Assembly (NCBI GenBank): GCA_028386065.3
Contig: JAKUCV010007359.1
Coordinates: forward strand, 143,669-207,668
Reading direction: 5' to 3'
From: Turnera subulata
Taxonomy: Eukaryota > Streptophyta > Magnoliopsida > Malpighiales > Passifloraceae
DNA length: 64,000 bases
The notes under the pieces are model-generated. The model did not search any database and was not told the origin of the DNA. It worked only from the letters and a program-made list of their open reading frames with translations. Shown here piece by piece: positions 5,595 to 38,501 of this stretch (positions within the stretch are counted from its first letter, which is position 1; every line of letters begins with the position of its first letter). The translations under genes were made by a program, and so were the position numbers.

Positions 5595-7591
5595 TCACTT
5601 GCCCCTGTAATAAATAAGAATAACATGATTAGAATACCAGAGAAGGAAAAGAAAAGACACACATAAACAGATAGGTACAGAGGAATTAGTTTCCAGTTAA
5701 CTTACGTGCTCATCATCAGAGTGATGTTATCCCCTTTAAGAAGAATCCTTCCTGAACAAAATAAAAGATACACATAAGAGCATGCACACAAATGAAAGGA
5801 AGTGAAAGTTAACCAAGTAGATCACCTAAAGACATTCTAAAAGACAAAAGTAGAACAAGGAGGCGTGCCCAAAAAAAAGAAGGTTAATAAAATTACCCAA
5901 TGTTTTCCTGCTCTTTTTCTTGATGTTGAGTTCCTCAGCATCGTCAAGCACCAAATTCATGTACTCATCAAAGCCCTGTTAACCAGCGTCAATAAATAGA
6001 ATAAATAGATGCAAAAGCAGAGCAATGACAGACATCTTCATACGCACACAGGTTACAAAAAAGGGAATTAGAACATCAAAAGCCCCCAAAAAACAGGGAA
6101 ATGGAGTCCAACCTCATGATGAACATGAAAAGAAAAACAAATGAGAAGTGATCCAAGTTAAGGGTAGAACCAAACACAATACTCAAATTTGGCTTAGCTC
6201 AAGACACAGGGCTGAAGATGGAACAACAGGATGTCTGTGCAAGTTACAATTCATGAGTTACTTTTTGAACCTGAACAATAAGATAGATGCATGATTGCAA
6301 AAGCGGATGGAAAATTAAGTGCTTCAGCAGGAGGATGAAGATAACTCTAGCTAAGGATAAACTGAGAAGAGTTCTTAAGATTTCCCTTTACAGAAGGACA
6401 ACCTACAGAATGGTCCTTGCTAAAGAAAGTTGAAATTCCAATTGGGTAATCAATTATTGAAAGAAAAAAAAAACACGAGTTGGGTTGAAGTGTTAAAGTA
6501 TTTCTAAGAAAGCAGCTCACACAAAGCTAGGCTGAAATCTGAGAGTAAGTGGAGACTAGTTTGAAGTGGAGTTGTACAAGAAATCATTTAAAAGCAGTAC
6601 AGAGTGCAGTACGCAACACACACACAATTACCAATCAAAAAGAATTTGGTATGTTAACACCATAATGCAACTGCAGTGAGTGGGAAGCAAAAGATGTGGA
6701 CAATTCTAAACGAGTTTAGAACAGAAATTGTTCATATCACGTAACCATACCTATTCTAAAAACAGAGAACAGCTTCTACAGTTTTTATTCGAGGTGTATG
6801 ACTCTTCAATCCCTTACATACCAAATCCAAAACCATAAAATGCCTAACAACATATAAAAAAAATTTCAAACCCAGCATGGTTTACTAGGAACATAACAAC
6901 AGCAATTGCCAGATAGCAGTAGCCATTAACCCACTATTCATCATCCGATGACAACTAGGTCTCAGCCCAGTCGAGTCAGCAATGCATGTTAGTACTTACT
7001 CTGCTAAAAAAACAGTACCAAAATTGAAACCCCAACAGTTGCAAGCTAACTAACTTCAACCAATCACGAAACCAAGCAAAAAAAAAAAAAAAAGAAAAAA
7101 AGAAAAACAATTTACCCTTTGCAACTAAGATCCGTACATAAATCATAGAGTTATAGCAAAAACTAAAGTCGAATTAACAGTGAGAAAATAATGGCCAGAA
7201 AAAAAAAAGACTTACAATGATTCTGCCCTCAATCCTGACATCCTTCTGCTCGAAGAGCCAAATCTGGATACGAGATTTCTGCAGGAGCTCAAACAAAAAC
7301 AACCCATAAGCTTCTATAGAACAGAAAAAAAAAAGGAGTCCATAAAATAGAATAAAACAAAAACAAACCACGCCCAGTAGAGAAACTACTTACGCTTTGA
7401 AGAAACCTGAAAATCAGATTCTGCAGAAGAGGAAACAAAAACGAAGACACGAATCAGCCAACGGAGGAAGAAGAGATTATTACGTTAAATAAAAAGAACA
7501 CAAAAGGGAGAGAAGAAGGAAGGAAGAGAGTGACGAAAGAGAGACGTACAATGGGTTGGGTCATAATCCGCTGAACTTTGGTGCTCGCCAT
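5595..7591 (-). CDS. SmE: Small nuclear ribonucleoprotein SmE (Sm core protein E)
   Basis: This encodes the E subunit of the heptameric Sm ring that binds the U-rich site of U1, U2, U4 and U5 snRNAs in the spliceosome. Coding exons in transcription order are 7591-7550, 7420-7394, 7278-7216, 5975-5897, 5751-5706 and 5604-5595. All introns are GT-AG. The exons sum to 267 bp, giving 88 residues, the usual length for plant SmE. The protein starts [14 protein letters not shown], carries Sm1 around [20 protein letters not shown] and [12 protein letters not shown], and Sm2 around [14 protein letters not shown], then ends STGK. Frame and phase are continuous across all five introns. Intron 3 is long (1,240 bp). 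The 5' flank has a telo-box and two TGGGCC boxes. A partial second copy lies at 14,070-14,911. Confidence 0.97.
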
Positions 7592-7689
7592 GGCTACGGA
7601 TTTGGTGTCGAACGACTCTAGGGCTTCACCGGTGAGGGAAATTGGGGGAGTTTTAACGGAGGAAGAGAGAGAGGGAGAGCGAAGCGTTT

Positions 7690-7840
7690 AAACCCTAGAA
7701 CCAATATAATATATAACAACAAACTACACGGGTTTTGGGGTTTTGTTTTTTTTTTTTTTTTCTTTTGTAAGAGAGAAGAAAGAGACCGAGACGAATGGAA
7801 GACTTGCTTGCTTCTTAGTTTGCTTGGGCCGTATTGGGCC
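7690..7840 (-). promoter_or_regulatory. SmE promoter: telo-box plus paired site II elements
   Basis: AAACCCTA, the plant telo-box read on the plus strand, lies at 7690-7697. TGGGCC site II motifs lie at 7825-7830 and 7835-7840. The telo-box plus site II combination is known from plant ribosomal-protein and other proliferation-linked housekeeping genes, which fits SmE. All three are also present in the partial copy (TGGGCC at 14868-14873 and 14878-14883). The transcription start cannot be fixed from the sequence. Confidence 0.6.
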
Positions 7841-7891
7841 TCTCAATTCTCTCTAAGCACAATATCTGGTGTAGGTAGGATGGATCAGGAG

Positions 7892-8624
7892 AGCTATGAT
7901 TGTATTGTATTGTATGTACGTACAGTGGACAAGCCTGCCTATCTGCGGATTCGTATTGTTATCATCTTGAATTATTAAATACAAAAAAATTACTACTTTT
8001 TTTTGTGAATAAATTTGTTTGTTTATTTATGAAAAATAAATTACCATGACTGAGATATTTTAAGAAGACTCCTAATAAACGACTGATATTGTAGCTTAAA
8101 AATATCAACGACTATCTAATCTCATTTGGTGGTCATGAAGTATTACTGACAAAAAGCTAATAACGACGGAGCGTGACCAGAAATTTCCTCGTCGTCGATT
8201 ACTTCCCGCGACCGTAATTATCCATGACTAGATTTTTTTTTATTTATTTGGGTCAACATGACTAGATTTCTTGTCACTGGAAATTGTAACAAAATTAATT
8301 AATGCTCTTGGCTCTTGGCATGGCTAGAAGCCTAGACCTAACCTGCTAGCATGCAAACAACAAAATATACTAAGCCCCAAATCCACTTTTTTTGCATTTT
8401 TTTTTCTAGACTTAAGTCCAAGTTCTGTGGAATTGTGGGACACTGGTCAAGCCATAACCGAGTGGAAACCGTGGAAATTTCAACCTTGAACACAGTGCTA
8501 GTAATTATATTAAAGGTGTACCTATATATATATATATATGTCCATATGCCAATATATATCCTACTACTACGTACGTAAAGGCAGACTAGATCAGTGTGTG
8601 AGGGATAATTAATTAATCAACTGG
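7892..8624 (+). promoter_or_regulatory. 5' flank of GLR copy 1
   Basis: About 730 bp between the SmE promoter and the GLR copy 1 start. A block at about 8446-8511, from GTCAAGCCATAACCGAGTGG to CACAGTGCTAGTAATTATAT, recurs upstream of GLR copy 2 at about 28272-28361, interrupted there by extra bases. It is therefore shared promoter or 5' leader DNA. A (TA)n run at 8523-8539 lies just downstream in copy 1 only. I cannot assign a TATA box with certainty. Confidence 0.4.
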
Positions 8625-11600
8625 ATGATAGTTATGGGAAAGCATGGATTATTGTTCTTCATCTTCTATCTTCCATCCCTGCTGTTGCTGGGTGTCTTGG
8701 TTGATGAGAGCCAAGAGGCTACTACTACTACTACTACTAATATACCAGTGGGCGTGGTTCTTGATTTGGGCTCACCGCTTGGTGAAATGGCAGAGAGATG
8801 CATGTCAATCGCTGTCTCTGATTTTTATGCCGCCAATGCTCACCATCGAACAAGGCTCGCTCTTTTGTCAAGGAATTCCTCAACTGATGCCGTCACTGCA
8901 GCATCTGCAGGTACGTAATAATTATATATATAATTTCTCTTCTATTAGCTTCCAATTAGTGAGTTCGAGCCTCAGCTTCAACAGTCGACAATATCTTTAA
9001 ACCAAAAAAAAAAAATGGAGTGGAAAAAGAATATAATAACTCAAATCTGAATGAGAAAAGTCTTAGGCTCACAATAGGGTCTATATTAAGTAACTTTATA
9101 TGTTTAAGAACTTGAGCCATATGATGGTTTTAGCTCATGCAGTTGTGGAGGTTATAGGTTATTCCGGACTATTACTACAAGAAAAGCTGATTTTTAATGA
9201 GGGCTGGGAATGGAACTGCCGACCTCATTGGTTTTTACCATCTTAGTGTAAAAAAATATCACAATTCACAAGGTGGCTTAGTGGTTTGATCTAAAAGTTT
9301 ATAATTCACCAAATGCAGCAATCGATTTGATAAAAAATGAGCAAGTGCTTGCCATCATAGGACCCCAGAGGTCATCACAAGCAAATTTTGTTATTGAGCT
9401 TGGAGGAAAAGCACATGTCCCCATCGTTTCTTCCTCGGCTACTAGTCCCTCTCTCTCTTCAACCCGAAGCAAATATTTCGTCCGGGCAGCCCTGGATGAT
9501 TCATCTCAAGTGAAAGCCATGACCGCCATCATCCAAGCCTATGGCTGGAGGGAAATTGTTCTCGTTCATGAAGACACAGAATACGGGAATGGGTTGGTTC
9601 CATACCTGTTGGATGGCTTACAAGAGATTGACACTCGAGTGCCTTACACCAGCAGCATCCCATTGTCTTTCACTGATAGTCAAATCACGAGAGAGCTCAA
9701 GAACTTGAAGGAAAAGCAGAAAAGAATATTTCTTGTGCATACCACTGCAATGCTAGGATCCAGGTTGTTCTTGCTTGCCAAAGATGCAGGAATGATGGAT
9801 GCAGGGTATGCATGGCTTGTGACACAAGAATTATCCACACAGTTAGCTCCCATGAGTGAAATTGTTATGGATTCGATGCAAGGTGTGATAGGTGTGAGGC
9901 CATTCATTCCATTATCGAAAGAACTTAACAGCTTTAAATCAAGATGGAGAAAGAAATGGAACTCGAAGAAAGGAAACAGTAAGATGATTGAACATGAGTT
10001 GAGCTTGTTTGGTTTATGGGCATATGATACGGTTTGGGCAATAGCAAAGGCAGTAGAGAATGCTCGTACTGTACGTTCAAGTTTTATAAAACAAAATTCT
10101 AGCAGAAATACCATTAATGTTGATCTTGCAGCCTTGGGAGTTTCCGAGACTGGGCCAAGACTCCTAAGCTCCATACTAAAGACCACATTTAAAGGCCTTA
10201 GTGGAAACTTTAAGTTGGAAAAAGGAGAAAGGTTATCCTCAGCTTTTGAAATATTCAATGTTGTTGGAAACTTGGAAAGAGTTCTTGGATATTGGAGCGC
10301 ACAGAATGGACTTTCGAGGAACTTGGACAAGAACAACAGTACAATATTGGACTATTCAGTTTCAAAAAGCAACCTCAAACAACCAATTTGGCCAGGAGAC
10401 ACAACAGGGCAGCCAAAGAAGTTGAGGATGGGGGTTCCTCTAAAAAGTGGCTTTCGTGAATTCATAAAAGTGGAGTGGGATTCCAGAAATAAGCCAATCA
10501 TTTCGGGCTTCTCTTATGACGTTTTCCTTGCAGTCATTGATGCATTACCATTTCCTTTTCCCTGCGAGTTTGTTCCCTTTGTCAATAAAACCAAGCAAAG
10601 TGCAGGCACCTACAATGAACTGCTTTACCAAATCAAACTTCAGGTTTGTTATACACAAACAAAATTGCATATAATATAAAATGCCAAAACAGCATATGAC
10701 CTCTTTGTTTTAATGAACTTTCCTGCAGAAATTTGATGCTGTAGTGGGAGATACAACCATAATGGCTAATCGCTCAACATTTGTTGATTTTACGCTGCCA
10801 TATTCAGAGTCAGGCGTTACTATGGTTGTTTTGATGAAACCTGATGCAAGGGAAAATATATGGATTTTCTTAAGGCCAATAAGCTGGGGTCTTTGGTTAA
10901 CAACTGGGTTAGCCTTTATCTTCACAGGTTTGGTGGTGTGGGTTCTTGAACACCGCACAAACTCTGAATTCAGAGGATCTCCCAATCAACAACTAGGCAC
11001 AATATTTTGGTTCTCATTTTCGACATTGGTCTTTGCACATAGTAAGTGTACCCTTATCCTCACTTCTTGATTTTGTTGCTACGAATGCACAGCCCTAAGA
11101 TAATGCATGCAAATTAGTATGTCTCCTCAAATTGCTTTCATGATTGTAGGGGAGAGGTTGATGAACAACTGGACGAGGTTTGTGGTCACAATATGGATTT
11201 TTGTGGTACTCATCTTGTCACAGAGTTACAGTGCTAGCTTGGCTTCAATGTTGACAGTACAGCGGTTGAAGCCCGCATTTGCTGATTTAAATGAGATCAG
11301 AAGGCATGGATACCCTGTAGGAATACAGAAGGATTGTTTTATGAAAGATTTCCTGATAAAACAGTTGAAGTTTGATGAGACCAACTTGAAGGAATATGTT
11401 ACCCCAGAGGAGTATCGAGATGCGTTGATAAATGGAATCCATAATGGGGGTGTGGCTGCAATCTTTGATGAAATTCCCTATGTTAAACGCTTCATCAGTT
11501 TGTCTTGCTCAAAGTTCCAAATGGTTGGACCAACCTATAAGGCAGATGGATTTGGCTTCGTGAGTGTCTCTATCCTTCTCCATCCTTCACACTTGTTTCC

Positions 11601-12290
11601 GGAATTCAACATAATGAAACAACTGGCATATGTACGCTAAACTTGGTAGAATTTGTTTCTTTTTTATATCAATTGAAGCATGTAGCAGTTGAAATGAAAC
11701 TCACCTCTTTATTTCCTCATCCTTATCAGGCCTTTCCAATTGGATCCCCATTTGTGCCACACTTTTCAAGGGCAATCTTGAAAGTGACTGAAGACAAAGA
11801 CAAGATGGAAATCATTGAGAGAAAGAACTTTGGTGAAGCTACTACCTGTGAAGATCAGGGCATTCCGTCCTCTTCATCTGGTCTTGGGCTGTCCAGCTTT
11901 GGAGGACTCTTCATCATCACGGGAGTTGCTTCCTTGTTCTCACTCCTGGCATATATACTCAGCTTCCTATACTCTCACTGGCCTGTTACAGACACCAGGG
12001 AAGAACAAGCAGAAACATCCTTTTGGCTGAGAGTCATTGAGCTGGCTAAGCACTTTGACAAGAAAGATCCTCCAGGTCTTGGTTTGGAGAGAAGCGGCTC
12101 CAGAATTCATCCTGTAACAGGCCCTGATGAAAGTACTGGCATTTTCCCGGATACTGTTTCTGATGATACACAGAATGATCCAGTACTGGTTTCCAATAAT
12201 ATTGTAGGAGTTGAAGAACATGCCGGAGCTGAAGCACATCGCATTGCTACTGCAGAGGATACAACTTTTCCTCTCAGAACATATGCATGA
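8625..12290 (+). CDS. Glutamate receptor-like channel, clade 2 type (tandem copy 1)
   Basis: Plant ligand-gated, non-selective cation channel of the ionotropic glutamate receptor family. Exons are 8625-8910, 9319-10643, 10729-11041, 11150-11559 and 11730-12290, all with GT-AG introns, totalling 2,895 bp and 964 residues with no disruption. Residues 1-30 look like a signal peptide. An extracellular LIVBP-like domain spans about 45-440. WPGDT at about 453 and LRMGV at 464 open ligand-binding lobe S1. M1 is about 588-608, the pore loop about 626-641 and M3 about 652-672, ending in SYSASLASMLT. Lobe S2 follows, M4 is about 837-859, and a hydrophilic cytosolic tail ends the protein. The QSY(T/S)ASLAS form of the pore motif is typical of clade 2. 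Exon 1 holds an (ACT)6 run coding six threonines that copy 2 lacks. It is convergent with the orphan DGK exon. Confidence 0.95.
8721..8738 (+). repeat. Coding (ACT)6 microsatellite
   Basis: Six perfect ACT codons in GLR copy 1 exon 1, just after the predicted signal peptide, encode a Thr6 run. The matching stretch of copy 2 reads EAPTANIP, so the run expanded after, or was lost since, the duplication. Confidence 0.9.
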
Positions 12291-12429
12291 GAGCTGTGTT
12301 CTGTTCTTCATACCATTCTGAAAGTAATCTTAGTAGGTTGTAGGTCAGAGTCTTCTTTTGGAGTTAAACTGCAGTAAAGAGAGTTCATGAGCCCTCATTT
12401 AATCTAAGGAACACAACCTTGGTGGTGAT

Positions 12430-13058
12430 TCTAAAGGTATGTTATGGATTTAGCGGGCAAACTGTAAAACAAACATGGATGATGAATGTCCACTCACCAT
12501 CCACAGTGCCTTACAATCCCAAAGCTCCCGAAAACCCGACGGATAAAACCCAGAAGAACCGTTGCCTTGTGTTATCCTCGTCGTGAGTTCCATACGCGTG
12601 ACCAAGAGACCACTCTATAACCCAAAACCTCAAGGTATTGGGTACATGGGTCCACTTCACTTATATGTTACTCACCTGGCCTCTTTCTCTCCGATGTGGG
12701 ATACACCATTCACGCTTATATTCCAACAACTTCCTTATTCATTCAATGAAAACCGGTAGCCGCACGCACTGAAACTTCCTTACTTGGTAGAAGAAAGGCT
12801 TATCTGGGTTGTTTTTTGCGGCCTTTGCAGGCTGATGTAATCGAACAAAGAACGCATTTTGATTTGGGTGCTTCACGAATAGGAATGTGTGCAGAGTGCG
12901 TGCGTTTATGTAAATTGTATGCTTCTTTCTTTCGAGTGTTTGATACTAAGAGTGATTTATTGATGGGTTCTGTTGCAGGTGTAACTGAAAAATCGTGGAT
13001 GAATCTTATTCGGGATATGCTACGTGACCCCCTCCCTCAAGCGATCACAAAAAAACGA
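12430..13058. other. Copy-specific segment in the 3' flank of GLR copy 1
   Basis: The two GLR units align up to about 12440 (copy 2: 32306) and again from about 13059 (copy 2: 32431). Between these points copy 1 has about 620 bp and copy 2 has about 125 bp of unrelated sequence. The copy 1 insert is less AT-rich than its surroundings. It contains an open stretch near 12979-13064, preceded by an acceptor-like TTCTGTTGCAG, that would read GVTEKSWMNLIRDML. I do not recognise it. It could be a transposon fragment or a captured gene piece. Confidence 0.5.
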
Positions 13059-14040
13059 GACTAATAAAGGGCTTCAAATGGGCAAATCCAGATCAGTGAA
13101 AATAAAATGCTAGTACCATTTAATATCACCAGTAAACACTGATAATGAATAGATATTAGCAGCTGATATCACTCGTACACTGGCTGAAACAGTAACAATT
13201 AACAAAGCCTTTTTTTGCACTGAAAAAGCTGATCAATCAACTTGGTGCAATGAATACCAAATGGCCCAGTGAAAGACAATTTACAAGTCCTTGAGGAGCA
13301 AACCATGACGTTTTTACATTAATCTTAGCTCCTAAGGAGAGGCAATTACCCCGAGTGACACAACAACCCTCAACCAAAACAAGCCCTCCTTTTGCAAGCT
13401 ACTCTCCATTAATCATGAGTGATTGAAAAGGCACCCGCTTAATTTCCACAAATGATGAGTACTCATTGCTCATACGCTGTTTCCAGGGTTCTCCGTCCAT
13501 CTGCATGAAGGCATCTCTCCATTCCCCACCCCTTATTTCCAAGCGAATTGCCGCGGCCTAGTTAAAAGATAACAAAAAGAACCCATGAACGTGCATTACG
13601 AAAATAGTATACAAGAATAAGCACGAAAAATACCGCAACAGCAACCATAGACTTCTCATTTCCCCTTCTATCTCTCAGGTGCTATGTTCCAACACTTAAG
13701 ATTAGAACACATTTGGTTGTAAGAACAAATTCTAATTGGAGTACAGTTTCACTTCGTTAAATGAACCCAAAAGGTAAGATCCAAAATAGGACAAAATCAA
13801 CACAGGACTGTTTGGAATGACTTTGTTTGAAATTTGGGATGAGTAGGGGTTTCATCCATAGGCTGTTTTGATAAGTAGCCATTTCAACTTTTTTTTGATG
13901 ATTAAATTCAGCCTTTGACTTAAAAATAAAGACAAAGCTTCTCTAAGCCAACAGATTTATCAAAACTCTTGATCCAGAAGCTAAAAAAGCAACCAACTTT
14001 TAAGTAATCCCTAAAAGGCTCATGACTTCCTTTTTTTCTC
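13059..14040 (-). pseudogene. Orphan 3' end of diacylglycerol kinase (exon 12, part of intron 11, 3' flank)
   Basis: This aligns with 32,431-33,492 of the complete diacylglycerol kinase gene. The last exon is at 13557-13399 (159 bp, stop TAG at 13399-13401). It keeps the acceptor TTTTAACTAG and encodes the same 52 residues as the parent, including [18 protein letters not shown] and the terminal SLMING E. It differs from the parent exon at six bases, all third-position and synonymous. The intron part lacks about 73 bp present in the parent at about 33,267-33,340. Homology stops at 14,040, before exon 11, so exons 1-11 are absent. On its own it is a gene fragment. As the 3' half of a possible chimera it is listed separately. 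Confidence 0.9.
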
Positions 14041-14623
14041 GACTCGTTTGCGGTCTTGGATGCCCACCTGCTAACTAACTTCAACCAATCACGAAACCAA
14101 GCAAAAAGAAAAAAAGAAAAACAATTTACCCTTTGCAACTAAGATCCGTACATAAATCATAGAGTTATAGCAAAAACTAAAGTCGAATTAACAGTGAGAA
14201 AATAATGGCCAGAAAAAAAAAGACTTACAATGATTCTGCCCTCAATCCTGACATCCTTCTGCTCGAAGAGCCAAATCTGGATACGAGATTTCTGTAGGAG
14301 CTCAAACAAAAACAACCCATAAGCTTATATAGAACAGAAAAAAAAAAAAGGAGTCCATAAAATAAAATAGAATAAAACAAAAACAAAAACAAACACAAAC
14401 CACGCCCAGTAGAGAAACTACTTACGCTTTGAAGAAACCTGAAAATCAGATTCTGCAGAAGAGGAAACAAAAACGAAGACACGAATCAGCCAACGGAGGA
14501 AGAAGAGATTATTACGTTAAATAAAAAGAACACAAAAGGGAGAGAAGAAGGAAGGAAGAGAGTGACGAAAGAGAGACGTACAATGGGTTGGGTCATAATC
14601 CGCTGAACTTTGGTGCTCGCCAT
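13399..14623 (-). CDS. Putative SmE-DGK chimeric gene created at the duplication junction
   Basis: Inferred, not shown to be expressed. Exons in transcription order would be 14623-14582, 14452-14426 and 14291-14229 (SmE exons 1-3, 132 bp, identical in sequence to the parent exons), then 13557-13399 (DGK exon 12, 159 bp). SmE exon 3 ends in phase 0 and keeps its GTAAG donor. DGK exon 12 starts in phase 0 and keeps its pyrimidine-rich CTAG acceptor. The hybrid intron is 671 bp. The join gives 291 bp, or 96 residues: 44 from SmE (up to the Sm1 motif, ending EGRII) and 52 from the kinase C terminus (starting [11 protein letters not shown]). The SmE promoter boxes lie upstream and the DGK 3' flank downstream. 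The product lacks Sm2 and the whole kinase catalytic core, so neither parental activity is expected. It may instead be untranslated, unstable or silent. Confidence 0.35.
14041..14069. other. Duplication breakpoint with 29-bp filler
   Basis: DGK intron 11 homology ends at 14,040 (parent 33,492) and SmE intron 3 homology begins at 14,070 (parent 7,045). The 29 bases between match neither parent and I saw no copy of them elsewhere in the window. Filler DNA at a junction is usual for end-joining repair. Confidence 0.85.
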
Positions 14624-14911
14624 GGCTACGGATTTGGTGTCGAACGACTCTAGGGCTTCACCGGTGAGGGAAATTGGGGGAGTTTTAACGGAGGAAGAGA
14701 GAGAGGGAGAGCGAAGCGTTTAAACCCTAGAACCAATATAATATATAACAACAAACTACACGGGTTTTGCGCTCGAAGATTAATATGATTGATTTGGGGT
14801 TTTGTTTTTTGTTTTATAAGGGAGAAGAAAGAGGCCGACGAACAGAAAACTTGCTTCTTAGTTTGCTTGGGCCGTATTGGGCCTCACAATTCTCTAAGCA
14901 AAATATCTAGT
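14070..14911 (-). pseudogene. Partial second copy of SmE: promoter, exons 1-3, part of intron 3
   Basis: This aligns with 7,045-7,880. Exons 14623-14582, 14452-14426 and 14291-14229 are identical in sequence to SmE exons 1-3, with their splice sites kept (one acceptor changed from CTGCAG to CTACAG, still AG). Introns and the upstream flank show a few substitutions and length changes in A/T runs. The telo-box and both TGGGCC boxes are retained, so the promoter may be active. Exons 4-6 are missing, so no functional Sm fold can be made from this copy alone. Confidence 0.92.
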
Positions 14912-15423
14912 TTAAGATCGGTAAGCCCAAAAAAATAGATTGTTACATCAGTGGGCCAGTATATCTGCGCATTCGTCAGCAGTTTTTTTTTTTTTAGAAC
15001 TCCAAAAACTTGCTTCATAGTTACTCGTACTAGTAACAAATAATAATGTTTTTTAAAATTATGAATAAAGGTAAAATTTCTAAAATAGAGTATGGATTCT
15101 ATAAACATTTTTCTGAAAAACCAACACACCGCAAAATTTGTTTGAACAATATTGTACTTTAAAAAAATATTTTTTTTTCTAAAGTGGACATATAATTTGA
15201 TGGGAAAGATTAAGAACTAAGTCCTCTTTTTTTTTTGGCAAAAATCTCAAACTTTTTCCGACCCCTCATTTGGGCCGATCGAATGTTTGTATTTATAAAT
15301 TTAGGTCTTTAAGTAAATGTGGTAGATACCAGTGATAACGCGGTCACATTCAACCCTTGATTTCATTCAAGTACACTAGTTCGAAGTAAGATAAAAGGTT
15401 TTGGTAGAATTAGGTCAACAAAG
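14912..15423. other. Intergenic, partly homologous to the GLR copy 1 upstream flank
   Basis: Weak alignment with 7,881-7,960 continues past the clear SmE promoter homology. For example, a CAGTGG...TATCTGCG...ATTCGT pattern occurs in both. Beyond about 15,000 I see no gene or clear repeat, only AT-rich DNA with T runs. Confidence 0.4.
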
Positions 15424-15825: not shown

Positions 15826-18800
15826 TTAACTAACTGAAGCCCACGATGAGGAGCAAGCATCCTCATGCAATAGGCGAGTACAACCCATAGGAGGATCGTC
15901 AAAATACAAATGGTCAGAAACCGACGACAGGCCAAACCTAGCTAAAAAATCAGCAATCAAATTACACTCCCTAGCAACATACCGGAAACAACAAAAAGCA
16001 AAAGACTCAACCAGAGAGAAAACTTCAAGCATCAAAGGGTGGCACCTCAAACGAGTCGAAACAACCCCTTGGAGAACATCCATCAATTCACGATAATCAG
16101 ACTCGATAATGATCCGCCTAGCACCAATCTCACTTGCCAGCCGCAACCCAAATAGCACTGCCTGCAACTCTGCAATAGCCACACTACTACACGGCACCTT
16201 AGCACAAAACCCTTTCCGCCACAGACCACGGGCGTCCCGTGCTACACCCCCCACAACACACCAACCATCAACACGCCGAACAGCAGCATCAACAATGATT
16301 TTCCAGGTACCCACCGGTGGAGGATCCCAACATAACGTCTCAACATATCGATCACCATCCACCTCCCGTGAAAGCAAAGAACCGAGAGTTTAACATTACA
16401 GCGCGAGAGAGCTGCATATAATGCATAGCAACTATGGCGACCGGTCGCTGCACAAGAGCAAAAATGAACTCATTCCGCCATTTCCAGATCGCCCAGACAG
16501 TCATACCAAAAACCAAAGCCGGGTCCAAAGAGCCAGAAATTTTAAAGTGTCCCTGTAGACCGGTCTGAAGCCAAACAGCCTGGTCAGAAGCATAAAACTG
16601 TGAACGTCCTTGTGCCCCCAAAACAATATCCCATACAGCCTGGGAGAAAGTACAATCCCGCAGTAAATGTGTTATCGTCTCAGACCCTGCTTTACAACGT
16701 GGACACATATCACTCGTACTCATATGTCTTTGAACTCTACGTGCATTAGTCAAAACAGCCTCATGACAAACTTGCCACAAGAAAGTTCTAGTACGGGGTA
16801 ACCCCGGCCATTTCCATATCAACCGCCACATCTTTGTGCCGCTTTGCACCCGAGAATGAGAGGGAGAGGATAAAGAGTTATATGCAGCCCTTACAGTGCA
16901 TTCACAGGAAGCAATGCCATCCCAAATAACCTGGTCATCACCATTATTATAGAGGCTAGGCGTGAAGTCGTGGAACAGATGAATAACCTCTGTTAGAAGC
17001 ACAACATATAGTAGTTCCCAGTTCCATCCTCCCGTCGGCAACATATAATCAGCTAAGGATGTATCCTACAGCTCACTCGGTGGGACTGCCCCTGGGACCC
17101 CATCAAGACGCCCAACCTCCGGAAGCCAAGGATCTTGCCAGAATTTGATTGACTTCCCATCACCAAACACCCACGACATACCAGCTAGGATTGTAGGTCA
17201 TGCCTCACAGATCCCTCTCCAAACATGGGAAGCTTGTGCTCTCGGTCTCACTTGCGGCACCATAGAAGAGCCAGCCCAATATTTGGCCCGGAGTAAGCGA
17301 ACCCACAATAGCTCAGGTTTAGTAATCAGAGACCAAGCCAGCTTCGTTAAGAAAGCTTCATTTGCTTGTCTCATCCGCCGAAGACCCAATCCCCCATCCT
17401 TCTTCTGCCTACAAACAACATCCCAAGATACTAGAGACGGTTTCCTCTCAGAGGCGGATGAACCCCAAAGAAAATTCTTGGTTTCCTTATCCACCTTATC
17501 ACAAAGACCCTTTGGCAAAGACACAACATGCATAGAATAATAAGGAATAGACTGAATGGCAGATTGAGCCAATACCAGGCGACCAGCAAATGACAAACTG
17601 TTGGCCTGCCACCCCGCCAATTTCTGCTCCACCCGCTGAGTTATATGGCTAAAGGTGGAAGAGGTAATTCGTCCATGAACTAAGGGGAAGCCCAAGTATT
17701 TCCCAAGGTCAGTGGTAGCTCCAATTCCTAACTTGGAAGCAATTCCCTAAGCTAGCGAATCAGATATATTCTTAGAGAAAAAAACTAGAAAACTTAGCTT
17801 TATTAATCTTCTGACCAGAACTGACACAAAAAGTGTCAAGACACTGCATAATAACACTGGTTTGATCCATACTAGCTTCAGCAAACAATACTAAATCATC
17901 AGCAAAGAACATATGTGAGATAGCAGGAGCTAGGGCATTAACCATAATTGGCTTCCATACACCATGACCCACAAGCTCACTGATCTGCTGGGACAGCCTC
18001 TCAATACACAAGACAAAAAGATAAGGAGATATGGGATCTCCATGTCGAACTCCCCGGGATGAAGAGAAACAAGACGTGAGCTCCCCATTCTATAACACTT
18101 GGAACTGGCTAGAAGATAGACAAGACATAAGAATATTAATATAGCATGAGGGCGACCCAATATCCTGCAAGGTATACGCCTTCTCCAAATCCAACTTGAT
18201 TGCCATAAAACCCTTTGTACCTCTCTTTATCCTCATCGAATGAATAATTTCTTGAACAACAATCACATTATCGTGAATCTGTCTTCCCGGTACAAAACTA
18301 GCTTGAAAAGGTAGAACCAAAGAGTTCAACAAAGGCTTCAAACGATTAGTAAGCACCTTCGTCAAAATCTTGTAGCGGACAGTACATAAGCTTATAGGCC
18401 GAAATTGTGTGATCTCCTCCGGACACTCAACCTTAGGGATGAGGGAGAGTAAAGTCTTATTGACTTCCAGAGGGATGATCCCAGTGACAAAGGCCTGCTG
18501 AATCATTGAGCAGACAGATGGACCAACCAGATCCCAAAATCTCTGGAAGAAAACTGCATAAAGCCCATCCACCCCCGGCGCCTTATAAGGAGCCATCTGC
18601 TTTAGAGCCACATGGATCTCCTCAGCAGTAATAGGAGCTGCCAACCGTCCCAACGAAACCGGGTCCACATGAGGGAATTTTCCCCTAACAGATAACGGTG
18701 TGAAACCACCAGACTCTCAACTAAACAGAGTTTTAAAATGCGTACCTGCATGATCAGATAAAACAGCCGGATCCTCCACCCAACTATCATCAATGCGCAG

Positions 18801-19939
18801 CCCCGTTATTCTGTTTCTATGTCTCCGAATAACCGTCGAGGTATGAAAGAAGTGAGTATTCCTATCCCCACTCTTTATCCACTGGCTCTGGGATTTTTGA
18901 AACCACAAGAGCTCTTTTTGAGCCAAGACATTCTCAAACTCCAGAATCAACTCCTTTTTCAAGTTATATAGATAATGGCCTGCTCTATTATTAGCTTTAG
19001 CATGTTGTATTCCATTTATTCTGGCTAATAAAACCTTCTTCCTACGGAGTATATCACCAAAAACAGTACGATTCCACTTCACAAGGACATCCCTAAGGCG
19101 ATGAGTATCCTCATTCAAAAGTAAATCCCTTTGCCAATTCGACTCCACCACATTCTGGAAGCGAGGATCAAACAGCCAAGCCGCTTGAAAACGGAAAGGT
19201 CTGGGCTTGTTGGAAGCCCTCTGTGCACATAAATGAATCAATAAAGGTGAGTGATCAGATTTAGTACGAGGCAAGTGCTGCACAACTGCCTCAGGAAACC
19301 TCATTCGCCACTCCTGATTAGCCAAACCTCTATTCAGTCGTTCCAACACCAATTCCCTCGACACACCAACCCGTCGTTCCCATGTATACGGAGGACCCTG
19401 ATACCCAACATCCATTAATAAACAATCATCAATCCAAGATGTAAAGCGGGAGCACATTAAAGGAGATGCAGGGGCCCCACCAAGTTTCTCCGAAGGATCC
19501 CTAACAGTATTAAAGTCATCCACCAAAAACCATGGCCCAGAAATGGAACCCGCTATACTCCGAATAGCCTCCCAAAAAACTGACACAATGACGGGGTTGG
19601 GCTCGCATAAACCGTAGTTAACAACCACGGTGCTGAGTTCCCAAACCGCACCTGAACATGCAGAAATTGGACATGTCTATAGACTACAGAAACAGAAACA
19701 ACTGCCCGTCGCCAACATAACCATATACCACCAGCACGCCCCTGTACTTCCTCAACTTCCGCACTATCAAACCCACATCCACGGATAGTCTCAACTGCCA
19801 CCGCAGACAAAACCTTAGGCTCTACCAAAATAACAAGATTTGGTCTATAAGAAAAGACTAAATCCCGAAAAGCCCTTCGAAAACGATCACCTCCAGCCCC
19901 CTGGCAATTCCATGCAAGTATATTATGACTTAAATCCAT
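15826..19939 (-). pseudogene. LINE 1 ORF2 remnant: endonuclease, reverse transcriptase, zinc finger, RNase H
   Basis: Domains are in the expected order but scattered over several frames. The endonuclease start is at 19939-19553 (ILAWNCQGAGG). The endonuclease continues at 19628-18717 (PWFLVDDFNTVRDP, KSDHSPLL). The reverse transcriptase fingers/palm is at 18668-18090 (APGVDGLYAVFFQRFW, FRPISLCTVRYKILTKVL, KLDLEKAY). The FADD box is at 18011-17772 (HMFFADDLVLFAEA). The RT thumb is at 17695-17198. A zf-RVT-like region is at 17044-16352 (CPRCKAGSETITHLLRDC). RNase H is at 16377-15826 (VDAAV, AELQAV, IESDYREL, ADFLAR). At least one frameshift lies near 19,553-19,628 and others separate the later blocks. 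The usual GDFN of the endonuclease reads VDDFN here. Confidence 0.9.
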
Positions 19940-19985
19940 AAAAATAATAGATTAAAGAGAGAGGGACCAAAAGCAAACAACAAAA

Positions 19986-21779
19986 TCAGAGAGTCTCAGC
20001 TGTGACAGAGTCACACATGACCATATCACCATTATCGTCCGCTACATCAGTTTCCTGCACACAGGCTGCACCACCTTTATCTACCAAAACAGGCGGCGGA
20101 ACCCCTGAACCCAAGGGCACCTCACCCTCCAATACCACTGAGTCACAAACATCAAAGGCAACGTTCATCGGGGACGACAGAGAAGAATCAACATTCGTCG
20201 CCTTTTCCACCACAGGCGCCGGAGCTGATGTTATAGGAGGCACCACCTTCGGGTTAGCCAGAGGTCCAAAACTAGCCGGAATTGGGGGTCCCTTCGCAAT
20301 CACCCCAGCCCAAATATCATCCACCTGCTGCCCCTTCACCTCCTCCTGTCCATTATTTTTCTTTGGCTTAGCCTGCCTTTTAGGTTTCATCTGCGCCACC
20401 TGCACAAGAGCCTCCCCATTTAACGTGTAACTGGAGGCACCCCTAGGCCTCTTACCCGCCAAGCCCTCGCTCTCATCAACTCCCAACATGGGTTCGGACA
20501 AGAAAACACCCTTCGCCTTACCCTTAGATAGACCCTTTCCAGACGAGAAACCATAGGATGAGGGAGCTTTCGCAATATTACCTGAATTAATGCCCTTTGA
20601 ACCTTGGAAAATCATAGTAGGCACTGTACCAACCTTCTGCTTAACTGGTGCTGATCCTTGACCCTCCTCGGATATGGCAGATACATCACCCAAAACATTG
20701 AAGCGAGAACCCGCCCCTTTACTCAGAGGACCATCCTTCGTACTCCCCTGAACACCAGCACCTCCTTTTCTGTTATTAGGCCGAGACCTAGGAGGAACTA
20801 GAATCCATTCCCCATACTTGGTACTGGGCACACCTCCCGCTGCCGAAGAAGGCACAGAAGCAGACTGCCCAGGACCCAACGATCCTGCCGGAAGCTCAGA
20901 ATCCACAGCTTGTGCAGCACTCCCATTCACAGTCGCCGACCCATGACTCGTAGCTGTGCAAGCGCCCATCAAATGACCCGCACGCCCACAGCTAAAACAA
21001 ACCTGTGGCAGACTTTCATACACAATAGGGTACCACACACCATCCACGCAAGTCTCTGTCTCCAATGGCTTAGAGATGTCCAACTTCACCGCAGCCTTAG
21101 CAAAACGACCACGCTCTATCTTCTGAGTAGAGTAATCAATACGGATCATCCGACCAATTCGATTACAAACCTCCCATAAGATTGCAAGCTGGTATAGTTT
21201 CGTAGACAAACCAGGTACACAAACCCAAGCCACCACACCAGTAACCTTGTGCGTAGCAGGCACAAAATTCGGTTGCCAGGGTTCCACAGTTAAGTAGTGA
21301 TCAAGAATGACCCATGGTCCACCATTCATGACCCGTAGATAATCGTAATTATCAGCAAGCCTGACCAGGAAATAATTTTGGTCTAAATCAATCACCTGGA
21401 ATTCGCCCCTCAGCCCCCACAAACGAGAAAGTCGATTACACAGCATCCGGTAACCCAAAGTGTGCCCCCAAAGTTTAACTATGACAGTGTCTTCCCACTG
21501 TTTGTGGATACGTGCCCTAAAAGAATCCGACAGCCGGATCACGGGGCCACGCTCCGTCATTTCCGATACGACATCCCCCTCCAAGGCCTCGAGCTCAGTA
21601 TCAATATCCAAACTACTGGCAGCCGGCCTAGAACCCAACGCCTCCCGAAACGATTTGGGAGACGCTTCCCCCGTTGACGGTTGAGCACACTCCGGCTCCA
21701 TAGAAACATCAGAAGGGGCCACAGGAGGAACCGCCATCGGCAGAGCAGTCCCCCCGCCCCCTGGCGGCTCGCCACTCAT
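19986..21779 (-). CDS. LINE 1 ORF1: nucleic-acid-binding protein with DUF4283 and CCHC knuckle
   Basis: Intact 597-residue frame starting at ATG 21779. The N terminus is Pro/Gly/Ser-rich. A DUF4283-like region spans about 85-240 (VKLWGHTLGYRML at 101-113, MNGGPWVILDHYL at 151-163). A CX2CX4HX4C knuckle sits at 261-274 (CFSCGRAGHLMGAC). The long C-terminal tail is basic and Ser/Gly/Pro-rich. It presumably forms the RNP with element RNA. It is the best preserved part of this element. Confidence 0.88.
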   Translation of the reverse strand: MSGEPPGGGGTALPMAVPPVAPSDVSMEPECAQPSTGEASPKSFREALGSRPAASSLDIDTELEALEGDVVSEMTERGPVIRLSDSFRARIHKQWEDTVIVKLWGHTLGYRMLCNRLSRLWGLRGEFQVIDLDQNYFLVRLADNYDYLRVMNGGPWVILDHYLTVEPWQPNFVPATHKVTGVVAWVCVPGLSTKLYQLAILWEVCNRIGRMIRIDYSTQKIERGRFAKAAVKLDISKPLETETCVDGVWYPIVYESLPQVCFSCGRAGHLMGACTATSHGSATVNGSAAQAVDSELPAGSLGPGQSASVPSSAAGGVPSTKYGEWILVPPRSRPNNRKGGAGVQGSTKDGPLSKGAGSRFNVLGDVSAISEEGQGSAPVKQKVGTVPTMIFQGSKGINSGNIAKAPSSYGFSSGKGLSKGKAKGVFLSEPMLGVDESEGLAGKRPRGASSYTLNGEALVQVAQMKPKRQAKPKKNNGQEEVKGQQVDDIWAGVIAKGPPIPASFGPLANPKVVPPITSAPAPVVEKATNVDSSLSSPMNVAFDVCDSVVLEGEVPLGSGVPPPVLVDKGGAACVQETDVADDNGDMVMCDSVTAETL

Positions 21780-21900: not shown

Positions 21901-22214
21901 AAAACTGTCGACATTTGGCAAATAGCATATATTCTATCTTTCCCAAAGGGAAGATTGGTGTCATTCCTTCTCAAACTTATCTAACAACAATAATCTCCTG
22001 GATCCCAAGAGTTTTTTTTTTTTAAGGGAATCACGTTTACTGGGAAAGTCCTAGGTCTCTCTAGGTGTTCTCTGTCCTCCTAGAAACTACGAACCCTAGC
22101 CGCCTAGGTGTTCTCCAATTTCTTGGGGGGTTTGGGGTCTGTTTATTGCAGGTTTTTCTCGTTTCTTCGAGTTTTTCCAGTCTTGTTACTGCAGGCTTTG
22201 ACGATAGTGACATA
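21901..22214. other. Space between the two LINEs, including the LINE 2 5' leader
   Basis: The first part is host flank of LINE 1 and the later part must be the 5' leader of LINE 2. I could not place the border, because no target-site duplication of LINE 2 was found. A T13 run at about 22012-22024 precedes the likely leader. No gene is seen. Confidence 0.4.
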
Positions 22215-32777: not shown

Positions 32778-35700
32778 CTACTCTCCATTAATCATGAGTG
32801 ATTGAAAAGGCACCCGCTTTATTTCCACAAATGATGAGTACTCATTGCTCATACGCTGTTTCCAGGGTTCTCCATCCATCTGCATGAAGGCATCTCTCCA
32901 TTCCCCTCCTCTTATTTCCAATCGAATTGCTGCGGCCTAGTTAAAAGAAAACAAAAAGAACCCATGAACGTGCATTAGGAAAATAGTATACAAGAATAAG
33001 CACGAAAAATACCGCAACAGCAACCATATACTTCTCATTTCCCCTTCTATCTCTCAGGTGCTATGTTCCAACACTTAAGATTAGAACACATTTGGTTGTA
33101 AGAACAAATTCTAATTGGAGTACAGTTTCACTTCGTTAAATGAACCCAAAAGGTAAGATCCAAAATAGGACAAAATCAACACAGGACTGTTTGGAATGAC
33201 TTTGTTTGAAATTTGGGATGAGTAGGGGTTTCATCCATAAGCTGTTTTGATAAGTAGCCATTTCAAACCTTTTAAACTTATGCAGTAGCTTTTGTTTTCC
33301 CAAAGGTTAGGTAATGCCTTTAGAAGTAACAATCTATGACTTTTTTTTGATAATTAAATTCAGCCTTTGGCTTAAAAATAAAGACAAAGCTTCTCTAAGC
33401 CAACAGATTTATCAACACTCTTGATCCAGAAGCTGAAAAAGCAACCAACTTTTAAGTAATCCCATAAAGGCTTATGACTTCCTTTTTTTCTCTCTCTGGC
33501 TTTTGAAATTCTTTAAAGTTTGTTTAAAAAAGCAGAAAAGTTGATTTAAGTACATATGTTCTCTTAAAAACAACCATTACAAATGGTGCGTGAAATCATT
33601 CCATGACAAAGTTGATTTCTGCAGTGACTAGTTTACCTGTGCAATGTGTTTGGCAGAGATGAGTTCAACCATTACAAATGATGCATGCCATCCTTGCTTT
33701 AAGCCAAAAATTTCTAGGAGGCCATCATCGGCATGGGCCTCAACAAAGCCTCTCTGGCAAAATATTTACAGAAAACAGCCATGAGAATCAAAAAAAGGTA
33801 TCTAAAGCTCAAGACATATATCTATGCACTGCAAATCATGAAATTATTGCTTTAGAAAAGTGGAAAATCTCAACGCAGAAAGAAGTAACGAAGATCATAA
33901 GAGCAAGGTAGTGAAAGTGTCCAGTGCAGTCTATTAACAAATATGCTATACCTTTTCCAAATACTCTGGTTTTGGACTACCCCATGGATTTCTTCCACTT
34001 CCATAATTGGGAAGATTTAAAGCAACTATGGCCCTAACACTGGAAAAAAGCACAAATAGATACACAATAAGCAACCGAAACCAAAATGGTAAAGCAAAAA
34101 AGAGACTGGTAAACTATTCCCATCCCCTTATCGTTAATCACGCCTCTAGCAAGAGCATTTAATAACAAAAGATGCATTTAGGAACCTATATTTTTGCCAC
34201 TAAAAGTTTAAACCTTATCACTAGAAGTGGAATGTGGCTAAAAGATTGGGGTGCATCAATAACAGCACCACATCTCTTGATTGATAATCAGTAAAACAAC
34301 AAAAAGAGAAAGATATTAAGCAGCAAATACAGAACTTTTACCCACAAATTATAATGGAAAAAACAAACTGATATCTATAAAACAACATGCAGAGAAGCAT
34401 TATCTGACTCCATCTATCTCAAGAGAAACGTTGCCCCCGATTAAGCACTACCTTTTAAGAACTGGAATCAGCTCCCAATCTGAGCAATTGACCTTTCTAA
34501 CATGCAATTGACCTTTTTAACATGCAAACTGATATTTATAAACAACATGAAGAGAAGCATTATCTGACTCAAAGCTGCATCTATCTCAAGCGAAGCATTG
34601 GCCCCGATTAAGCACTACCTTTTAGGAACTGGAATCAGCTCCCAATCTGAGCAATTCACCTTTTTAACATGCAATCTCAGGATATTCTTGAGTCCCCTAA
34701 TAACAGAAAAACTCGTGTTAGTGGAAAGCAAACACTAACTGTGAAAGAATACTATAGCCAGCAAATGACAGAGACCAACAAAAACTAGAAAGATAAAAAA
34801 TGACTATGACTATTTGACATTTATGTTCAAGCAGTAGTTTATAAATGAGGGGAACAGAAAGAGGAAATTCTAATTCAAATCACTAGCCCAAGACATCCAC
34901 CACTCTATGAAAATGAAACTTATTCAAATCATATTTCCCAAGCAGAAATAAGCAGTGCAGATGATATATAATAGATGAATGTAACAGAAGTATAAATGTC
35001 CTTCATGTTTGGTATAAGACTAACATGATAGAAAAAATAAAAAGTACAAAAGTTGAAGGTAATAGAGTCCAACAACAGCAATCACGTTGATGAAATTTCC
35101 GAAATGTTAAGATGCCAATACTTGCGAAAGCTGAAAGCAGAAATTGCAGCTGTGATAACTTCAACATTTAATTTATATACACAAATAACTCCTTAACAAC
35201 ATCCAACCGACCCCCGAAAATAAGATAATGCATGGCAAAAGAAATTGCTTTAGTGCAGGCACATCTAACCTTAAGCTTGGATCACTTATGCAAGGTGTGA
35301 GAAACCAGCCCTGAGTGCAACTGTAACCAGAGTAGATAATCTGTAAAAACAGTTCATTCAGTCACAAATTTCATTAGAAGCATTATCAAAATTAATTGCC
35401 TTAGAAAAGGAACAGTAATATACATGGTTTAAGAAAATAATTTTCAGCAAGCATTGACAGACATTTTTCCAGCAGCCACAACTACAACAAAACAGAAAAG
35501 AAATAATAATAATAACTGTCCTGCAAATTTTGCATCCACTGCACAAAACTATGTTCTTTATCAAATAGAATCAAACTTTAGCCTAACCAAATACAAGATG
35601 AGACATAATTCTTGAGAAAAAAAAATTCTTTCACCAGTTGATGGTGCATGTTCAAGCATATCACAATTGTGTGAACCAAATTTACAGAGATACAAAGACA

Positions 35701-38501
35701 GAGTGAAACCTTATTTGAAATAGGGCCTTGTGCAAGGTAAGGTTTTTCATTCCGTAAATGGTGAAAGCCATAAGCAACCTGAGCATCCATTCCTGTAGGA
35801 GCAACAAATAAATCAAACCCTTAAAAAAGTGAAAGAAAAATGTCTGAACGGTTGTAATTAAAAACAAATCCTTCTTCACCGCCATTCCAAGTATTACATA
35901 ATTCATTCCATTTGGAGTTTCATCACAAGCTAAGGTTCTTATTTCAGTGTAATTGTGCAAGAGTTAAGTCGTGCGAAGTACTTGTTAGAAAAGATCCGAG
36001 TTCAATAAGGTTTTCCCTTTCAACTGTTTCCTGTACAAAATGCCATAACAGAGTTCTTGCAGCCTATGGAACTTCATAAGCTAAAGGGTTCAGAGGAAAA
36101 AGAAAACAAAGAAGACAAACAGAATGTTTAACCCAATCTAATTAAATGACTTCGAAATTTTCAATTTTGACCCAAAAAAAGGCGATGAAAGAAAGACATT
36201 GTAGACATATAAACTACTATAGCAGTTAGCATAGGATAAAATTCTTTGGTCTACAAGCAAAAGAAATATCACAACAGAAACCTGAAAACCCAAAACAGTG
36301 ATACATGCAGAATTTCCCAACCTCCTCTAAAAATTTGGCATACCTATGCTGAAGTAGTTATAAAATACTCCTTCATAATATGAAGCTTTCTCAGGCAACA
36401 GCCCCTCAACTGGTACACCCTGCAGTCAGAAAAAGCTTTGGCCATGAGCATACATGATTTTATCACCAGACCAGAAAACCAACACCATACAGTTACACCG
36501 TAAAAAACCAGGATCCAGAGAGCAATGAGAAATTATTCAATCTGCAAATCAAAGTTCTACAAGACGCCATCTCTAGAACTTGCTTATGGAGACCAAGTGC
36601 CAAACCACTTGAACCATTAGAGTGTTGCTATCAAAAAAAAACGTTTTGAAAACTGCTTGACCATGAGCATGTTACTACAGACAGGAGACTGTAATGTTTT
36701 GGGCTTGAATTCTAAATTAGAAATAGTCGATCCTCAGTACCAGCAAAACAACTAACGCAGTATAAAATCAAGTAGAAAGATCCACAACCTGATCAAGTGC
36801 ACACTCTTCTGTAGATTTCAGAGAATGAGGTGGATCCACCACTTGTCCACATGGCAATGACACGAAAATCTGCCAACTGCATCAACAAGGAAAAGGTTCT
36901 GACTTAACTGGTAATGGCAATAAAGGGAAAATAACAAATACCGTAACACTAGTATCACTTCAAAGGATACATGCATTTGTCTGTTTGCTTTTCTATCTAT
37001 GGAAGATTGATAAAAATTGTTAATGTTATTAAACCAACTATTTTCAACATATTTGGAGCAGCTTGCTAATCTGATTCCTCACTTGCTGGTGAAAAAATAT
37101 TACAGCCCTCTGATCTTAAATCCTCATTGTAGGATGATGAAGGTGAAAGCATTCTGGCAATCAATTATTACACTCAAAATACCAAATATGCATAACAAAA
37201 GCGTTGTATAGATAGGTTGTTACTTTAACGCAGCCTTGAAACAATTAACTAAAGGAAAGGAACGGCCAACACTAAAAAAGAATCAGATTGAACAACATTA
37301 TTGATATAACCATCATTTTGATAAAATAGCATCTGCTAAACAATAGCAAAAGACTTGCCTGTCTAGACGGGAAACTGGAGCAGTCATAGCCCTGAGTAGA
37401 GACTTTTTGATGGCTGATTTCCATGCAAACGGAAAAGAACCTCCCTAAAGAACACATTAAGAATATACAGATGAATAATGCAGAAAAAGGAAAAAAAATC
37501 ACATCGAATATATAAAAAGAAAAGAAAAGGGAAAACTTACCCAACCAAAACTCCTCGACAAGTCATTTCCAGTACCAAGGGGCACGATTCCTACAGGTGG
37601 AACTGGCTCTCGACCCTGCTTGTGCATTTCTGTCAGAGCTCCCAACACCCAACCCACAGTACCATCGCCTCCTGCAACCTGCACAGTCCATGTTTTCAAT
37701 AAATGATTCAACATATCTCCTCCAGTCACCCAGGAAACCACGATCATGCCTTTAACCGTACCATAATTCTTATCTTCTCACGAGTCTCTTTGGCGCAGTA
37801 ATCACCACGGGCAGCCAACTTCTCGAGGCAACCCAGACCATGCTGTATAAATTCATGAGGCTTCACACTTGACAAGTCAAGAACCTACATTACATACAAA
37901 ATCCTACTTCATGCCTCAAGTCATTTACAATGTGGGTTCCCTAAACCCCATCAAACTATCACCATAAAGATCCAAACTTTACTCTGTCAAAATTTACATT
38001 AAAAAAAAAACTACAAAGATTACATGTTTCACCTGAACATTACTCCAGATTTTTAAAAAAAAAAAGAGAAAGACTATAAGACACTACAACAAAGTCTACC
38101 TACACTGTAAATCCCCACTTCAAACAGAGAAATGCCAAAAAGAGAAAGGCTTTGACCTGTTCATGTGCCATCAATTCCTGAAGCCGTAGCTTGAGTTCCG
38201 GGCCGTGCCTCCCGCCGCTTTTGGAATTGACGAAGACCACCATGGGGCCCTCGGGGGCTTCCTCCCGGGCGTAGTCGGCGGCGGACGAGTGGCGTTCGGC
38301 GGCGGCGGAGGCATCCTTGCATTCCATGGCGTCGACAATGGCCACCCGCAGGTACTTGGGGATCGTAAGCCTGCGCCTCAAGTCCTCCTTATTTACTCGG
38401 ATTCCAGTGAGGCCACACGACCGGATCGACTCGATCATCGACGATCTCGACCCGATGATCCTCGCCGTCGATTCCTCCGTTGTCGTCGTCTGCGAGTCCA
38501 T
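32778..38501 (-). CDS. Diacylglycerol kinase, plant C1-less type (cluster II-like)
   Basis: Phosphorylates diacylglycerol to phosphatidic acid with ATP. Exons in order are 38501-38157, 37884-37762, 37678-37541, 37444-37359, 36876-36789, 36419-36344, 35792-35710, 35340-35270, 34696-34619, 34039-33952, 33753-33637 and 32936-32778. They sum to 1,452 bp, 483 residues, a normal length for the short plant kinases. The catalytic domain starts at about residue 88 ([15 protein letters not shown]). The nucleotide loop GGDGTVGW is at 159-166, followed by [20 protein letters not shown]. The accessory domain includes [28 protein letters not shown] and [18 protein letters not shown]. There is no C1 domain. 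Intron 4 has a GC donor (ACAG|GCAAGT), forced by the conserved RLDSW junction. Exon 1 is GC-rich. ATG 38501 is the first in-frame ATG. A partial tandem copy of exon 9 lies in intron 9. Confidence 0.95.
34365..34674 (-). repeat. Local tandem duplication covering most of DGK exon 9
   Basis: 34526-34674 and 34365-34507 are diverged direct copies, each opening with AAACTGATAT and ending with ACATGCAA. The first contains most of the working exon 9 and its donor. The second contains a partial pseudo-exon (about 34507-34453) that still encodes [10 protein letters not shown] and keeps a donor but has lost the acceptor end. A further 20-bp copy (TTGACCTTTTTAACATGCAA, 34508-34527) sits between them. 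Confidence 0.85.

Follow-up and report, generated by a model that had tools for sequence, protein, structure and literature searches.

Results

Organization of the duplicated region

The window, the whole 64,000-nucleotide stretch analysed here, was compared with itself by blastn, and matches above 120 bits were taken as repeat blocks. The comparison resolved two collinear units with the same gene order within these 64 kb. From left to right the order is SmE, GLR1 and a DGK tail, followed by an SmE head, ~13 kb of LINE-like DNA, GLR2 and DGK. The genes of the two units are:

5595..7591, minus strand: parent SmE gene, 6 exons, 88 aa, complete (from exons and translation)
8625..12290, plus strand: GLR1, glutamate-receptor-like, left unit, 5 exons, open frame of 964 aa
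28406..32156, plus strand: GLR2, the right-unit copy, open frame
32778..38501, minus strand: parent DGK (diacylglycerol kinase) gene, 12 exons, 483 aa, complete

The repeat blocks found by blastn, with length and identity, are:

7045-7873 vs 14070-14914: SmE and its promoter, 829 bases, 91%
8620-8932 vs 28401-28727: GLR start, 313 bases, 83%
9285-12442 vs 29169-32309: GLR, 3,158 bases, 92%
13052-13892 vs 32426-33273: DGK tail and 3' flank, 841 bases, 97%
13887-14040 vs 33339-33492: DGK intron 11 side, 154 bases, 95%

Collinear blocks of this kind place the duplication far beyond chance. Both parents lie whole at its outer edges, SmE on the left and DGK on the right, each adjoining its own GLR gene, and the junction between the units unites the 5' part of SmE with the 3' part of DGK on one strand (minus). 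None of the 64,000 called bases is an N, and no gap of Ns lies at the join. The gene content, intron-bearing genes of SmE, DGK and GLR type, suggests that the window is plant nuclear DNA.

The SmE protein matches the LSM domain (1e-18), and its best solved relative among PDB chains is 8xi2_e, a chain named small nuclear ribonucleoprotein E (E 4e-43). The DGK protein carries DAGK_cat at residues 87-221 and DAGK_acc at residues 278-455, and ANF_receptor and Lig_chan domains were found in GLR1. The parent DGK gene has two peculiarities of its own. The donor of intron 4 is GC rather than GT (GCAAGT, 37357-37358, minus strand), and a direct repeat of ~150 bases (34364-34675, 89% identical) has one copy at the end of exon 9 and the other in intron 9, meaning that part of exon 9 is repeated in that intron.

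Between the SmE head and GLR2, two LINE-like elements on opposite strands, 15826-21779 (minus) and 22065-27777 (plus), take up most of the interval, with RVT_1, RVT_3 (RNase H-like) and DUF4283 domains in frames broken into several pieces. Weak homology to the region upstream of GLR1 picks up again at 28099. The 609 bases between GLR1 and the DGK tail (12443-13051) are without counterpart in the right unit, which has 116 other bases there (32310-32425), and no second match for either segment was found inside the window. A near-perfect inverted repeat with 139-nt arms, 98% complementary and 5 nt apart, lies at 60977-61259.

Structure of the putative hybrid gene

The unit junction is spanned by the following minus-strand features, with exons located by exact string search:

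14768..14914, minus strand: diverged copy of the distal SmE promoter carrying two GGCCCA boxes (21 differences over 130 aligned sites, 25 gap columns)
14624..14767, minus strand: copied SmE core promoter and 5'UTR (TATAT run, AGGGTTT), identical to parent 7592-7735 (0/144 differ)
14582..14623, minus strand: hybrid exon 1, copy of SmE exon 1 with the ATG start, exact match to 7550-7591
14426..14452, minus strand: hybrid exon 2, copy of SmE exon 2, exact match to 7394-7420
14229..14291, minus strand: hybrid exon 3, copy of SmE exon 3, donor GTAAGT, exact match to 7216-7278
13558..14228, minus strand: chimeric intron of SmE intron 3 start, filler and DGK intron 11 end, 671 nt, 65% A+T
13399..13557, minus strand: hybrid exon 4, copy of DGK exon 12 with a TAG stop, parent exon at 32778-32936
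13052..13398, minus strand: copied DGK 3' UTR and flank, inside the 97% blastn block

An initial annotation of the sequence had proposed this arrangement, SmE exons 1-3 followed by DGK exon 12 on the minus strand, and the string search confirmed its coordinates, phases and residue counts. Its 96-residue open frame is also borne out. The spliced frame has 96 codons, 44 from SmE and 52 from DGK, and ends in TAG with the stop in the last exon; the parental introns at the join are both phase 0. The SmE coding part is unchanged, as claimed (0/132 in exons 1-3). Six differences separate hybrid exon 12 from its parent; each is a third-position synonymous change, and none alters an amino acid. Promoter and 5'UTR are identical to the parent only over the 144 bases upstream of the ATG; the next 130 aligned bases are the diverged segment with 21 differences, and the blastn match ends at 14914/7873. 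A TATAAA located 195 bases before the hybrid ATG, in the diverged distal promoter, is absent from the SmE parent.

Phase matching was evaluated for all SmE-by-DGK intron pairs, and 25 of the 55 match (45% when weighted by intron length). An in-frame product is unsurprising because ~45% of random intron-intron joins match phase, and the in-frame join was rejected as a sign of selection.

The duplication breakpoint

SmE homology stops at 14070 and DGK homology starts at 14040, which leaves a short filler:

14041..14069, minus strand: filler at the duplication breakpoint, 29 nt

No clear source for the filler was found within the window, where its longest exact match elsewhere is 10 nt, a length equalled by 339 of 500 shuffles. 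Copying from nearby was considered and rejected; once flanking bases are added, to 33 in all, the sequence has 12 nt in common with 16048, a weak match equalled by 30 of 500 shuffles. The 29 unmatched bases fit non-homologous end joining, the pathway that we infer. The proposed origin, a partial tandem duplication broken within SmE intron 3 and DGK intron 11, is supported.

Divergence across the duplicated block

Non-coding differences between copy and parent were counted on each side of the junction. On the SmE side 5/546 aligned sites differ, and all five are in intron 2 (5/115, with 19 gap columns), where three of the five adjoin a simple-repeat indel. Intron 1 (0/129) and the copied part of intron 3 (0/158 aligned sites, 12 gap columns) have no differences. 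The DGK non-coding tail differs at 17/823 sites, and the two sides of the junction agree (Fisher P 0.12). The identity of the SmE coding sequence is not evidence of selection because the regional identity takes in introns. Purifying selection on the SmE part was rejected on this ground, introns 1 and 3 and the 5'UTR being just as unchanged.

Over the whole block, divergence is a mosaic of ~1-3% around the junction and ~8-16% outside it. The SmE block differs at 5/680 sites, the segment from 11789 to the DGK tail at 44/1,635, the GLR body before 11789 at 188/2,449 and the distal SmE promoter, as aligned for this comparison, at 21/128. Two-rate fits, which mix coding and non-coding sites and in which most GLR sites are coding, place change points at 11789 and 14769 (2dLL 50 and 56.5). 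The ~3 kb between them (11789-14769), which surrounds the junction, has diverged far less from the parents than the flanking sequence has. The fits rule out a single clock for the whole duplicated block. The block thus lacks the single age expected of one event, a feature that is not strictly defining as conversion can blur it. A low-divergence stretch of ~3 kb around the junction means that the sequences beyond it on both sides are older or were replaced. Several histories would produce such a mosaic: gene conversion, a two-step origin, repeated unequal exchange, or a pair of haplotypes whose divergence is patchy.

GLR1 and GLR2 differ with Ks 0.14 and Ka 0.057, and their introns 2-4 differ at 38/341 sites, well above the DGK tail (P 4e-10). 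The age of the duplication is ambiguous because the copies are ~1-3% from their parents by the junction and the GLR Ks is 0.14. GLR intron 1 (8911-9318 vs 28710-29202) is unalignable although the GLR exons are 87-96% identical, which suggests intron replacement or exon conversion.

The main alternative to a real locus is a false heterotype duplication, in which the GLR1 and GLR2 units would be two haplotypes of one locus, placed end to end by an assembler and mis-joined or gap-filled, and the hybrid would not exist. The layout is one that overlapping haplotype contigs would give, with SmE whole on the left, DGK whole on the right and the middle present twice. The patchy divergence points the same way, with SmE and DGK at ~1-3% and GLR and the distal SmE promoter at ~8-16%, as does the fact that only one side contains the ~13 kb of LINE-like sequence. 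The six exon-12 differences are six of six synonymous, as between working alleles, and false duplications are reported to be bridged in some cases by read-unsupported sequence that derives from wrong gap filling (PMC9516828). The absence of N at the join speaks against this explanation, although the same report describes filled gaps. Also against it are the clean breakpoint in each intron with a short filler between, which in length and place resembles a known plant end-joining filler (PMC2686159), and a GLR Ks of 0.14 with an unalignable GLR intron 1, high for alleles. A false duplication is unlikely on this balance, and it is the alternative that deserves most weight.

Predicted transcription and splicing of the hybrid

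Transcription of the hybrid is plausible because the core promoter, the 5'UTR and introns 1-2 are kept. The splice signals had been described as all retained, which holds for the GT and AG dinucleotides (GTAAGT donor, CTAG acceptor of the chimeric intron) but not for their surroundings. CTRAY is the plant branch-point mark, and the sole CTRAY within 80 nt of the parental exon-12 acceptor is a CTAAT 38 nt upstream. This motif is GTAAT in the hybrid copy, where the nearest CTRAY is 144 nt from the exon-12 acceptor. There is also one T to A change in the U-rich tract before hybrid exon 12, and the intron-2 acceptor is CTACAG in the hybrid copy versus CTGCAG in the parent.

In a second alternative the gene is transcribed but not spliced to exon 12, through retention of the chimeric intron or early termination of the transcript, and the product is a 67-residue truncated SmE. 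Intron retention would yield the 44 SmE residues plus 23 more, and the change from CTAAT to GTAAT 38 nt before the acceptor, with the T to A change in the U-rich tract, would favor that outcome. The donor and acceptor are unchanged, however, and weaker branch-point candidates are still there by eye. The intron is also ordinary in length (671 nt; parents 1,240 and 700) and A+T content (65%; parents 64% and 67%). Failure to splice to exon 12 is improbable given these properties.

Expression of Arabidopsis SmE1 (PORCUPINE) is reported to depend on several introns in concert. Single deletion of intron 2, 3 or 5 is reported to cut SmE1 expression considerably, loss of introns 4 and 5 together resembled loss of 5, and expression was abolished by joint loss of introns 1 and 3, or of more than two introns in all combinations tested (PMC11940714).

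The predicted peptide and DGK exon 12

The hybrid peptide would combine the N-terminal half of SmE with the final 24 DAGK_acc residues and the DGK tail. It has no Pfam match above cut-off. No LSM match was listed at E up to 1 in a search that drops most hits above 0.1, and there is no DAGK_cat match; exon 12 encodes DGK residues 432-483 and DAGK_cat is at 87-221. Two sub-cut-off Pfam matches, DUF6459 (E 0.024) and InPase (E 0.094), look like chance. Matches to solved SmE chains end at residues 43-50 of the hybrid in 9 of 9 cases at E up to 0.01. As it keeps half of SmE and 24 DAGK_acc residues, the 96-residue peptide is most likely unable to join an Sm ring as a subunit or to act on lipid as a kinase.

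The density of differences in DGK exon 12 (6/159) is not significantly higher than in the DGK non-coding tail (Fisher P 0.24). Counted as synonymous changes, the six compare with 0.64 expected from the flanks (P 5.5e-5). They correspond to a Ks of 0.23, and ~4 changes are expected at the GLR Ks of 0.14 (P 0.21). From parent to copy, four are W>S and two W>W. The six-to-zero signal is real but ambiguous. It may come from a hybrid under selection, from a short tract converted by another DGK gene, or from two units that are alleles.

A third alternative takes the exon-12 pattern at face value and holds that the hybrid is a functional young gene, its peptide expressed and held by purifying selection. 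The chance of six synonymous and no amino-acid changes is 0.0013-0.0030 (kappa 1-3), calculated for a free copy, equal branches and a fully constrained parent. At the GLR age, with which the exon-12 Ks of 0.23 is compatible, a free copy would be expected to carry ~8.8 amino-acid changes, and 0 are seen (P 1.6e-4). These calculations depend on where the changes arose. The six are unpolarised, and changes that come from the parent or from paralogue conversion carry no information about the hybrid; with none of the six assigned to the copy, the chance equals 1. At the neighboring non-coding rate, 1.3 amino-acid changes are expected (P 0.27). Selection on the peptide also leaves the synonymous excess over the flanks without explanation, and no parental domain was found in it. 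A selected, functional hybrid is quite doubtful on these grounds. It is highly improbable that the locus is an old hybrid created by tandem duplication from two unrelated genes, in which peptide selection kept the DGK exon during synonymous drift and conversion held the ~3 kb near the parents.

Discussion

The reading we prefer, at about an even chance, is a genuine chimeric gene that arose by partial tandem duplication, has some transcription and encodes a peptide without the function of either parent. An ancestral SmE-GLR-DGK block would have been partly duplicated in tandem, with breaks in DGK intron 11 and SmE intron 3. The broken ends, seen today as a joint with 29 filler bases, would have been united by end joining, and the outcome is two whole parents at the outer edges and a four-exon hybrid at the junction. 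The hybrid probably has some transcription, with splicing to exon 12 in at least part of its transcripts, and the 96-residue product is most likely a by-product under little selection.

A base-resolved junction, collinear blocks, complete parents and an intact set of exons, GT/AG sites and frame argue for the genuine chimera. Because divergence is not uniform, a single simple event would have to be supplemented by conversion or a second step to account for the locus. Further points count against the preferred reading. The branch-point-like CTAAT is lost in the hybrid. Exon 12 looks constrained rather than free, at odds with little selection. Of the SmE introns, the hybrid has the first two and the beginning of the third, while Arabidopsis SmE1 is reported to need its introns (PMC11940714). 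The initial description of the locus as a possible newborn gene is not established, as neither parental domain was found in the peptide and the frame match was near a coin toss.

If the assembly is right, the hybrid belongs to a recognised class, the chimeric genes that form where tandem duplicates meet. A literature search found no SmE-DGK fusion in print, which is no proof of absence. If real and expressed, the hybrid would give a base-resolved plant case of two unrelated genes fused into a chimera through tandem duplication. Both parents are within the same 64 kb, and one outgroup sequence could make the six-to-zero synonymous pattern interpretable.

The closest counterparts by mechanism are the Drosophila yakuba chimeras (Rogers et al. 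2017), where a duplication that ignores gene boundaries brings the 5' end of a gene together with the 3' end of a different one, as here (PMC5460883). A figure legend of that report (Fig. 2) also has a whole gene duplicated alongside, the place taken by GLR in the case of the hybrid. Chimeras of this origin are often expressed: of 76 in D. yakuba, 24 showed up-regulation in one or more of the four tissue samples. Chimeric duplications occurred at lower frequencies than duplications of whole genes, however, and the authors take this to mean that they are mostly detrimental (PMC5460883), which also counts against the preferred reading. The hybrid differs from these in being in a plant and known from sequence alone, in having a breakpoint resolved together with its filler and in its mosaic divergence. 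Fusion genes in Oryza are likewise young plant genes that join two parents, and the Oryza survey reports very little evidence of tandem-duplication chimeras from two unrelated genes (PMC9199173).

Plant SmE/PORCUPINE has 6 exons and 5 introns (PMC11940714). The hybrid carries the promoter, 5'UTR, introns 1-2 and exons 1-3 of its SmE parent and only the start of intron 3; it is without exons 4-6 and introns 4-5, and hence without half the protein. The maize p2/p1 chimeric gene is a parallel for the join itself, as a plant fusion of neighboring genes inside an intron with a short filler, 50 bp in maize and 29 here, a known trace of end joining (PMC2686159). The source of the maize filler is known, while none was found in the window for the hybrid filler. 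The p2/p1 gene joins related genes by deletion, in contrast to the hybrid, which joins unrelated genes by duplication.
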